Assembly: GCF_000024985.1 (NCBI RefSeq)
Contig: NC_013523.1
Coordinates: 2,666,001 to 2,730,000, forward strand
Reading direction: 5' to 3'
DNA: 64,000 bases
Origin: Sphaerobacter thermophilus DSM 20745
GTDB taxonomy: Bacteria; Chloroflexota; Chloroflexia; Thermomicrobiales; Thermomicrobiaceae
Below are positions 45,225-51,585 of the stretch, piece by piece (position 1 is the first letter of the stretch; the number at the start of each line of letters is the position of its first letter). Made by a program: the position numbers and the translations under genes. The notes beneath the pieces were generated by a model that worked only from the letters and a program-made list of their open reading frames with translations, searched no databases and was not told where the DNA came from.

Positions 45225-46286
45225 AACGCTTGGTGTGAGTTAGGGCGCCGTGGCTACCAGGTGATCAGGTTCGCCACGGCCAGCAGCGGCCGCCCCTGCT
45301 GCCGATTCAGCCAGCAACAGAGGTTGTGCAGCGCCACCTTGGCCGCCAGTCGCGCCTGGAAGCCCGCCAGGGTGTGCGGGCGCTCCCGCTCGAGGCCGAA
45401 GGTGTGCAGCAGTCGTCCAACGACCGTCTCCACGATCTGGCGATGGCGGGCCACCCAGCGGCGGACCGCCTTGGGCCAGCGCCGCCGACTGCCCCGCTGC
45501 GGGGTGGCCACCAGCGTCACGCCATAGGTGGCCGCCAGGTGCGCCTTGTAGTCCTCGCCGGCAAAGCCACTATCCGCCAGATAGGTCGCCACCGGCGTGC
45601 CGACACTGGGCAGGCGGGGATCGGGGTGGGCCCGACAGGCAATCAGGGTCTCGGCGAGGGACCGCTCATTGGTGCTGGCCGGGGCCACGCCCCAGCCGGT
45701 GATCGCCCCCTCCAGGCTGACGGCGGTCAGCACGCGGAAGCCGGCAAACCAGCCCAGGCGCAAGCTGAAGCCGATGTTGGCCTCGCCGGCCAGCCAGCCC
45801 CGCCCGCGGCGCTTGGCGTTGCGCACCGGAGCCGGCGCCACATCGAGCACATCCACCGCCACTGGCCCCCGGCCAAGTTGGTCTGCCAGGTAGAGGGCGA
45901 ACTGGGCCAGGGCGACCTGATGCCGCCGCAGCAGCCGGTTGTATTGGCTGCGGTGGGGCAGGGTCGGGAAGTAGGGGCGCAGGTGGCGCTCGGCGTAGCG
46001 GTAGAAGTCCTGCTCACTGGAGAACCTCATCCACTGCCCGAAGATGGCCAGGGTCAAGACCTCGCTGCGGCTCAGGGCCGGCGCGGGGCCGGGGCGGTGG
46101 GGCTCCGGGGGCAGGTGGGTCTGGCAGAAGGTGTCGACCAGGACATAGACTGTAATCAGGAAGGTGTCCACATCCATCGGGTGCTCCTTTCGTGGGAGAC
46201 GGATACGAGCTATCTCCCGTATGGAAGTGGGCACCTTCCTGTGTCAAGAGGGCACAGCATGCCCCGGCTAACTCACACCAAGCGTT
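45225..46286 (-). mobile_element. IS982-like insertion sequence, copy 2 (1062 bp)
   Basis: AACGCTTGGTGTGAGTTAG (45225-45243) and CTAACTCACACCAAGCGTT (46268-46286) are perfect 19-bp inverted ends. The left flank GTGCCCGGGGCTAA and right flank AAAGCCGCCGGGCT resemble halves of the GCCCGGGG palindrome, so the element seems to sit inside such a repeat. Confidence 0.88.
45254..46177 (-). CDS. IS982-family-like transposase
   Basis: 307 residues from ATG 46177 (AAAGGAGC upstream). The protein matches that of copy 1 over its whole length with scattered substitutions, mainly in the linker and near residue 220 (GTPVATYLADSGFAGEDYK here). Candidate DDE residues: Asp in VAVDVLDVAPAPV, Asp in YLADSGFAG, Glu in RQIVETVVGRLLHTFGL. 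The frame is intact. The amount of difference between the copies suggests two separate arrivals or an older duplication rather than a recent jump. Confidence 0.87.
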   Translation of the reverse strand: MDVDTFLITVYVLVDTFCQTHLPPEPHRPGPAPALSRSEVLTLAIFGQWMRFSSEQDFYRYAERHLRPYFPTLPHRSQYNRLLRRHQVALAQFALYLADQLGRGPVAVDVLDVAPAPVRNAKRRGRGWLAGEANIGFSLRLGWFAGFRVLTAVSLEGAITGWGVAPASTNERSLAETLIACRAHPDPRLPSVGTPVATYLADSGFAGEDYKAHLAATYGVTLVATPQRGSRRRWPKAVRRWVARHRQIVETVVGRLLHTFGLERERPHTLAGFQARLAAKVALHNLCCWLNRQQGRPLLAVANLITW

Positions 46287-49404: not shown

Positions 49405-49965
49405 CTACGGCACGCGCGCGGCCCAGATGGAGTCGGGGAAGCGCGCGCGCAGGATGTCCCAGACCTTGTACATCTCCGGGTCCGAGCGGGTCTTGAGATA
49501 GACGGCGATGCCCAGGCGATAGAGCACCTCGGGTGCGAGCGCGCCGTCGGGGTCCCGCTCGTAGGCGCCGCGCAGCAACTCGATAGCGTGGTCGGTGCGC
49601 GACCAGTGCAGGTCCACCCAGGCCTCGCCCAGGTCGAGCAGGGTGAGGAACAGATCGGGGGGCAGGAAGTTCAGACTGCGGTAGTGGACCGTGCCGCGCC
49701 GGTCGGCGAAGAGGATCGTCGGCGTCCAGATCACGTTGAGCGGCCGCACGACCTCCCGCGGGTCGCGGAAGAGGTCGAGCCTGAGCGGCACGAAGCGGCT
49801 GGTGACCGCGGCCACGACACGGGCGTCTGGATACGTCACGGCATCCAGTTTGGCGCAGCCGCGTCAGGGGTCTTTCATGACGTCGATCAGGAGCGGCTTG
49901 CGCTCGCGAGCGGCGCGCTCCGCGGCGTGCGCGAAGTCCCGTTCCCACTCGATGGTGGTTGTCAT
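49405..49965 (-). CDS. Probable selenoprotein: thioredoxin-fold UxxC protein with TPR-like tail
   Basis: The gene starts at ATG 49965 after AGAGGAGG (nine-base spacing) and runs 186 codons to 49405, with one in-frame TGA at codon 34 (49866-49864). The N-terminal part reads ERKPLLIDVMKDP, then TGA, then RGCAKLDAV. In thioredoxin-like proteins this position is the first Cys of CxxC, so the motif here would be U-x-x-C. The cis-Pro loop WTPTILF and the following strand are intact, and residues about 115-180 look like two TPR-type helix pairs. Downstream homology and codon use continue undisturbed after the TGA. If read as selenocysteine, this is a cytoplasmic thiol/selenol oxidoreductase. The alternative is a pseudogene by nonsense mutation, or a short protein restarting at GTG 49839. 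The hairpin at 49827-49848 favours selenocysteine. Confidence 0.72.
49827..49848 (-). promoter_or_regulatory. Bacterial SECIS-like hairpin
   Basis: Read on the minus strand, CTGGAT (49848-49843) pairs perfectly with ATCCAG (49832-49827) around a 10-nt loop, GCCGTGACGT. The loop begins with G, and 21 nt separate it from the TGA at 49866-49864. Known bacterial SECIS elements place a stem of this kind with G in the first two loop bases 16-37 nt after the UGA. It lies wholly inside the coding sequence, as expected in bacteria. Confidence 0.65.
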
Positions 49966-50102
49966 GACTCGGGGCCTCCTCTGGCGTAAGGAGCGCGGGC
50001 GTCCTCCCCGTGGGAACGGCTCTCACCCCCGACCCCTTTCCCAATGTTGGGAGAGGAGAGTCTCTTCGCGGGGGACGGGCGAGACGCCTGCGCTCCCGTT
50101 GC
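49966..50102. repeat. Partial GGGAGAGGGG-hairpin repeat
   Basis: CTCACCCCCGACCCCTTTCCC and TGTTGGGAGAGGAG at about 50022-50056 form a diverged hairpin like that of elements C and E. No heptad array is seen here. It lies upstream of the selenoprotein gene on the minus strand. Confidence 0.6.
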
Positions 50103-50597
50103 TCACCCGAGGCGCAGACGCCATTCCCCCACTTGCGCCGCGTGCTCGTCGACGTGCTCGACCATCTCCTCGATCAGGCGGTGCAGCCGGCCGACCTCTC
50201 CCCAGGGGAAGGGGCCGATCGCGCCGAGTTGCTCGGGCGTCAGCCGGTCGAGGAAGGCGAGGGCGCGGTCGCGCGCGGCCTCGAGGTCGGCCGCGACCTG
50301 CTCCCAGGGCTCGGTGCCCCGTACGGCGGCGGACATGGTGTTGAAGCTCTGCGTGTGCTTGATCGGATGGTGTCGCGGCTTCGGTCCGCCCAGGATGTGC
50401 TCAGCGGCGTCCAGCATCTCCCGATGCCAGTCGGCCAGGTGCCCCGTCACGTCCCGCACGGACCAGGAACCCACCGCAGGGTTTGTCTCCAGAACGACTG
50501 GGTCGATCCCGGCCACCAGGGCCGTGAACCGATCGTGCGCGCGGACCACCTCCGCGCGCAGCCGTTGGACCTCGCTCCCTTCAACGCGCTCGCCCAT
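50103..50597 (-). CDS. DinB-like four-helix protein
   Basis: 164 residues from ATG 50597, with GGAGTCGAGGAG just before; two upstream in-frame starts are weaker. The helix pattern EVQRLRAEVVRAHDRFTALVAGID, then VGSWSVRDVTGHLADWHREMLDAAEHIL, and the C-terminal RLHRLIEEMVEHVDEHAAQVGEWRLR match the DinB/YfiT metal-binding superfamily: His residues in HLADWH and HVDEHAAQ should bind a divalent metal. Relatives are thiol transferases dependent on bacillithiol or mycothiol, or damage-induced proteins. The substrate here is unknown. Confidence 0.85.
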   Translation of the reverse strand: MGERVEGSEVQRLRAEVVRAHDRFTALVAGIDPVVLETNPAVGSWSVRDVTGHLADWHREMLDAAEHILGGPKPRHHPIKHTQSFNTMSAAVRGTEPWEQVAADLEAARDRALAFLDRLTPEQLGAIGPFPWGEVGRLHRLIEEMVEHVDEHAAQVGEWRLRLG

Positions 50598-50685
50598 CGT
50601 CTCCTCGACTCCACTCTGCATCGCCTGCTGCCGTCCGCTAATCGTAGCAGCTTGCGGACGGGTCCGGGGCCGGCGCGGGCGGTGG

Positions 50686-50691
50686 TATGAT
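50686..50691 (+). promoter_or_regulatory. -10 box of a leaderless message
   Basis: TATGAT, then GGGCGT, then ATG 50698. The six-base spacing equals that of the two genes at 27299 and 27378; there is no ribosome binding site. Confidence 0.45.
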
Positions 50692-50697
50692 GGGCGT

Positions 50698-51585
50698 ATG
50701 GGAATCCTCGCGACGGTACTGGTCCTGAGTTCGGCCAGCCTGCACGCTAGTTGGAATCTGCTCGTCAAACGCAGCCAGGACACGCTCGCGTTTCTCTTCC
50801 TGGCGAACCTGGCAACGCTCGTGATCTACGCACTGCCCTTTGCAGGCTTCCTGCGCGCCCACCCAATCCCTGCCGATGGCTGGCCCTTCGTAGCGGCCAC
50901 GTCGACGATCCACGTTGCCTACTACCTCTGCCTCTCCGCCGCCTACAGCCACGGCGCGCTCTCGCTCGCCTATCCGATTGCTCGCGGCACTGGAGTGGCG
51001 CTCGTGCCGCTCTTGGCCCTGCCGCTCTTGCACGAGCGCATCTCGCTCGCCGGCGGGGTCGGAATCGCGCTCGTCGTCGCGGGTATCCTGGTGATGCACC
51101 AGGAACCGCTCCGGGCGCTGGTCCGCCAGCCGCTCGGCATCGCGGCCGGTCAACGGAGCGGTGTCAACCTCGGCACTTTCTTCGCGCTGCTGACCGGGCT
51201 GGCGATCTGTGCCTACTCACTGGTCGACAAGGCGGGGGTAGCCCGGGTCCACCCGGTCGTCTACGGCTACCTGCTCATGGCGGGGATGACCCTCGGCCTG
51301 TCGCCCTACATCCTGACCCGCCGCCGGGCCGGGCTACGCCGCGAGTGGGACGAGAACCGCGTTCCGATCCTCGTGGTTGGCCTACTGGTACTGGGGACCT
51401 ATCTGATCATCCTCACAGCGATGCGGCTCACGGCGGTCAGCTACATCGTGGCCCTGCGTGAGGTGAGCATCGTCATCGGCGCAGTCCTCGGCGTGTGGGT
51501 GCTGGGTGAGGGCGGCGGCCGGGAGCGTATCCCTGGCGCCGTCCTGATCCTGGCCGGGGTGCTCGCCATCGCGGTGATGGGGTAG
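50698..51585 (+). CDS. EamA/DMT-family transporter
   Basis: 295 residues with ten hydrophobic helices. The first repeat begins ATVLVLSSASLHASWNLLVKRS and includes AYSHGALSLAYPIARGTGVALVPLLALPLLHERIS; the second contains YSLVDKAGVARVHPVVYGYLL and ends in RLTAVSYIVALREVSIVIGAVLGVWVLGEGGG, the usual EamA signature. The ATG follows a TATGAT box by six bases with no ribosome binding site, which suggests a leaderless message. A cytoplasmic-membrane exporter of small metabolites is likely. The MFS gene follows 28 bp downstream, so the two may be co-transcribed. Confidence 0.88.
   Translation: MGILATVLVLSSASLHASWNLLVKRSQDTLAFLFLANLATLVIYALPFAGFLRAHPIPADGWPFVAATSTIHVAYYLCLSAAYSHGALSLAYPIARGTGVALVPLLALPLLHERISLAGGVGIALVVAGILVMHQEPLRALVRQPLGIAAGQRSGVNLGTFFALLTGLAICAYSLVDKAGVARVHPVVYGYLLMAGMTLGLSPYILTRRRAGLRREWDENRVPILVVGLLVLGTYLIILTAMRLTAVSYIVALREVSIVIGAVLGVWVLGEGGGRERIPGAVLILAGVLAIAVMG

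Follow-up and report, generated by a model that had tools for sequence, protein, structure and literature searches.

An open reading frame with one internal TGA

The window analysed here is a stretch of 64,000 nt from Sphaerobacter thermophilus DSM 20745, and it carries a putative selenoprotein gene at 49405..49965; this gene and all the features of the window described below lie on the minus strand. The frame opens with an ATG at 49965, closes with a TAG (49407-49405) and specifies a protein of 186 residues (P0001), provided that the in-frame TGA at 49864..49866 is read as selenocysteine (Sec) at residue 34. A Shine-Dalgarno sequence, AGAGGAGG (49975..49982), is found 9 nt upstream of the start codon, and several homologues are likewise preceded by GGAGG-like sites. 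The original prediction was correct in its account of the ribosome binding site, the ATG, the 33 sense codons and the TGA at 49866-49864, all of which were re-read in the sequence. It was also right that the same frame runs on to a stop codon (TAG), but its tally of RGC plus 152 further codons was too high, as the 152 codons after the TGA already include RGC. The TGA was said to replace the first Cys of a CxxC motif, and the reading agrees with this: the active site is U34-R-G-C37, within DPURGC, with Sec in the first position of UxxC, and both the second Cys (residue 37) and the cis-Pro loop WTPT (residues 80-83) are present. A gene finder that halts at TGA would cut this protein.

Selenocysteine and cysteine forms in the Chloroflexota

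The search for homologues with P0001 covered 158 genomes from the class and 400 from the phylum Chloroflexota. The homologues align over nearly their full length, and the 45 aligned sequences are collinear, with the second Cys of UxxC, Trp80 and cis-Pro82 invariant. The original prediction had anticipated Cys or TGA at codon 34 of any homologue, and this codon is TGA in 37 loci (the Sphaerobacter gene included), Cys in nine and nothing else, a count that excludes two distant Cys proteins (L061 and L062). The TGA persists in homologues down to about 31% identity and is never replaced by TAA or TAG. Among the named genomes scanned with P0001, five close relatives were found, the nearest being Sphaerobacter MAGs, with a maximum of 97% protein identity. 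Comparison with three relatives gave dN/dS values of 0-0.29 before the TGA and 0.13-0.18 after it, and third codon positions take most of the substitutions on both sides; judged by these substitution patterns, coding constraint is continued beyond the TGA. A lone stop in an otherwise intact frame does have the look of a recent nonsense mutation, but the idea that codon 34 marks a pseudogene or a sequencing error, with a dead frame behind it, has next to no chance of being correct and is refuted by conservation, given the TGA at the same codon in all 37 loci and the third-position bias and low dN/dS that persist after it.

In the maximum-likelihood tree, the distribution of Sec and Cys requires three changes, which are forced by the starred branches, and Cys forms are nested within Sec clades at three places: L017, a clade of seven genomes, and L056. 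The first of these belongs to a genus (g3, genome G107) in which its sister, L016, has TGA; L017 itself has Cys and no hairpin of the kind described below, and SelA and SelB are still encoded in the genome. We read it as a case in which Sec was exchanged for Cys recently, inside a single genus. In the seven-genome clade, SelA and SelB are not detectable. L056 (family f9) is a Cys form on a long branch and is the less sure case. Sec therefore appears, from the tree, to be the older state within the family, with Cys having replaced it about three times; the tree was rooted at its midpoint, and the thioredoxin superfamily at large has Cys. We also read the hairpin as having been lost at each of these replacements. 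The family thus offers natural before-and-after pairs, in which the same enzyme has either Sec together with a hairpin or Cys without one (one such pair lies within a genus), and two questions become directly testable: the benefit of Sec to a thioredoxin-fold enzyme, and the mobility of a SECIS within coding sequence.

The SECIS-like hairpin and the selenium-insertion machinery

Hairpins behind codon 34 were scanned for loops of 3-14 nt with a G in the first two loop bases and a loop start 15-37 nt past the TGA, limits of distance and loop size that we take to be close to those of the bSECIS model. The best hairpin of the Sphaerobacter gene, CUGGAUGC-CGUGAC-GUAUCCAG, occupies 49827..49848 (read from 49848 to 49827), with a stem of 8 bp and a 6 nt loop (CGUGAC, 49840-49835) that starts 23 nt past the TGA and has G as its second base. 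A hairpin behind the TGA had been predicted and is indeed there, but its stem does not start 21 nt away: only 15 nt lie between it and the TGA (stem start at nt +16), and the figure of 21 nt applies to the loop in the earlier version, with a 6 bp stem and a 10 nt loop, the best-scoring form being that with 8 bp and 6 nt.

Several lines of evidence tie this hairpin to the TGA. The mean energy of the best hairpin is -8.4 kcal/mol in the 37 TGA genes versus -1.8 in 11 Cys genes (p 6e-7). When synonymous codons were drawn, the hairpin was significant (p < 0.05) in 22 of the 37 TGA genes and in none of the Cys genes, although the single-gene tests are modest (p 0.018 for the Sphaerobacter gene alone). 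The core of the usual form is found in 29/37 TGA genes and 0/9 Cys genes, and its inner stem pairs are retained through compensatory changes from A-U to G-C and from G-C to C-G. Pairing is 88% in register, compared with 20–48% when the partners are slid, while the two outer pairs are optional and often unformed. Alternative stems occur in one genus (L026-L029; CGCGGCU-GGA-AGCCGCG or CACGGCU-GGA-AGCCGUG, itself a compensated change) and in one family (L015, L020 and L024; AUCGGC-UGGAU-GCCGAU). These are built from different bases and keep a small loop containing G, indicating that in two lineages the stem has shifted upstream by a few bases. Residues 40-47, which read LDAVTYPD or nearly so in TGA genes, are LxxETFxD-like in most Cys genes, and this suggests that the amino acids here are constrained by the RNA hairpin. 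With the TGA kept in 37 loci and a hairpin that tells TGA genes apart from Cys genes, the combination is well beyond chance.

The original prediction had also pointed to GTG 49839 as a possible start of the sole product, and a frame of 144 aa is indeed open from this codon, so that the UGA could be a real stop with a functional protein made from the internal start. At the sequence level, the GTG is found to lie inside the SECIS loop and to be unconserved, with GAT, GCG or GTC in its place in six of the 37 TGA genes and other codons in eight of the nine Cys genes. No Shine-Dalgarno sequence precedes it, its product would be without both active-site residues and without the first strand and helix of the fold, and codons 4-33, upstream of the TGA, are conserved too. 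We rejected the internal start, as an extremely improbable reading, on its poor conservation, its missing Shine-Dalgarno sequence and the lost active site.

The Sphaerobacter genome (3,993,764 bases in two contigs) was checked for the four genes, selA, selB, selC and selD, on which the prediction had been made to depend, and all are present. SelA (7e-130), SelB and SelD (8e-114) score above their family cut-offs, and the gene for tRNA-Sec (SelC) was found at 74 bits, with the anticodon TCA (UCA). SelD (G000:C1:928852-929787, L042) is itself a selenoprotein, with one in-frame TGA in LASCAG-U-ASKMGPE. Within the class, SelA and/or SelB is encoded in 29/29 genomes with the TGA form versus 2/9 with the Cys form (Fisher p 2.9e-6, a value that overstates independence because all seven Cys genomes that lack sel genes belong to a single clade). 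Those TGA genomes of the class without one of the two proteins are incomplete assemblies. Seven of the nine Cys genomes have no SelB and, one marginal match aside, no SelA. Elsewhere in the phylum, SelB was found in all seven further TGA genomes.

Near-cognate tRNAs allow low-level readthrough of UGA in bacteria, and the codon might accordingly be read, through such leakiness or through reassignment to tryptophan, as another amino acid with no selenium involved. We consider this very improbable and rejected it, as the UGA aligns with Cys only, the hairpin vanishes together with the TGA, and no TGA genome that was checked is without both SelA and SelB. Many family genes moreover terminate in UGA, so these organisms do use the codon as a stop at other sites. 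By comparison across these genomes, we regard the recoding of UGA, the SECIS, the family, the exchange of Sec and Cys and the class of fold as established, and we hold with high confidence that the Sphaerobacter gene is a true selenoprotein gene with Sec at residue 34. What is apparently a gene broken by a stop codon is thus very probably an intact gene for a selenium redox protein.

Fold, related families and proposed function

The N-terminal part of P0001 is a Thioredoxin_7 domain (residues ~6-119; 49609..49950), which matches PF13899 with 40.9 bits against a gathering score of 27; all 45 family members match this profile (E < 0.001). PF13098 is also passed, though less well (29.8 versus 27). 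The AlphaFold model (pLDDT 97.4, pTM 0.92) displays a thioredoxin fold up to about residue 120, and the structural matches to this domain include DsbD-gamma and DsbH; in profile searches too, the N-terminal part resembles DsbD-gamma-like domains. A TPR-like C-terminal tail (residues ~123-186; 49408..49599) had been proposed, and is borne out by profile matches to YbgF/CpoB and to consensus TPR, by three helices in the model (residues 124-137, 144-159 and 162-175) and by the presence of TPR_6 in 7/45 family members. VIA-align says little about the tail alone because its list is filled with matches to the thioredoxin domain. No signal peptide was evident by eye in the N-terminus, MTTTIEWERDF.

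The original prediction did not recognise a described selenoprotein family, and none was matched here, either at the NCBIfam cut-offs or in an inventory of 119 selenoprotein families (PMC13188914, published in 2026). P0001 reaches no cut-off of the NCBIfam selenoprotein models, and scans of the 45 members list nothing else of note. It scores 22.4 bits against NF041199 (Trx7/PDZ; cut-off 300), 45.2 against NF045694 (TsoB, a rhodanese/DsbD fusion; cut-off 805), where it matches at the thioredoxin end only, and 23.5 against NF041383 (VPGUxxT type 2; cut-off 275), with DPURGC instead of VPGUxxT as its motif. The inventory has no PF13899 entry by accession and no UxxC Thioredoxin_7 entry, and in the literature that joins selenoproteins, Chloroflexota and thioredoxin, we found nothing on a UxGC Thioredoxin_7 family.

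The only Thioredoxin_7 family in the inventories is the Trx7/PDZ selenoprotein (NF041199), which is listed under pfam13899 in PMC9312934 and shares this domain with P0001, but has an attached PDZ domain and carries Sec in the second position (CxxU, not UxxC). The entry nearest to P0001 is the PF13098 UxxC thiol:disulfide interchange selenoprotein (PMC13188914; representative WP_011366075.1), known from Syntrophus and Geobacter (PMC1794560). By description, it too has Sec as the leading residue of CxxC within a thioredoxin-like domain, but it is listed under PF13098, and P0001 fits PF13899 better. The thioredoxin domains nearest to P0001 by sequence and structure are those of DsbD-gamma and the TsoB selenoprotein. 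Those domains belong to larger proteins, either membrane proteins or fusions, whereas P0001 is a free-standing protein of 186 aa with a TPR-like tail. As far as these sources go, the proteins found here in Sphaerobacter and many other Chloroflexota form a new and seemingly unlisted selenoprotein family of a well-known kind, set apart from the PF13098 UxxC family by description.

The protein is probably a cytosolic thiol-disulfide reductase, and we infer its catalysis, the direction of the reaction, its location and the role of its tail. SelB, carrying Sec-tRNA(Sec), would bind the hairpin right behind the UGA at 49866, and Sec would be inserted at residue 34. The product would be a soluble, probably cytosolic, thiol-disulfide oxidoreductase of the thioredoxin fold, in which the Sec34 selenolate may attack a disulfide or another oxidised-sulfur substrate, Cys37 would resolve the resulting selenenyl-sulfide, and the TPR-like helices may contact the substrate or a partner. 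We consider this mechanism, in its details, to be reasonably likely.

An alternative accepts the selenoprotein and competes solely with the simple-reductase part of this explanation: the main work of the protein could be that of a chaperedoxin like CnoX/YbbN, holding oxidised clients and handing them to folding factors. CnoX is described in PMC8129009 as a holdase that also has a protective redox function. Foldseek ranks Escherichia coli YbbN/CnoX first among the matches to P0001, and in both proteins a thioredoxin domain is followed by TPR-like helices. Against this, the match has an rmsd of 11.8 over 189 columns (TM 0.42, 14% identity) and the relative placement of the two domains is very different, the Sphaerobacter tail is shorter, and CnoX belongs to another thioredoxin subfamily, the DsbD-gamma/DsbH type fitting P0001 better by sequence. 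We view the chaperedoxin role as unlikely, and grade in the same way the fuller proposal of an undescribed, Chloroflexota-wide family, with Sec as the older state and a sliding SECIS, that would act as a Sec-dependent chaperedoxin with a client-binding TPR tail; the thiol-disulfide reductase is the reading we prefer.

No gene neighbour recurs across the family, and because the gene context is not conserved beyond close relatives, the substrate is not readable from it. A DinB-like ORF lies upstream of the selenoprotein gene on the same strand (50103-50783), an arrangement seen in Sphaerobacter and one other genus only. In the latter (L085), the DinB-like gene is directly upstream, at a distance of 6 nt, and is possibly co-transcribed with the selenoprotein gene. 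Further downstream in the window is a transposase-like ORF of 326 aa (45254-46234, minus strand), which appears by eye to be of the DDE type.
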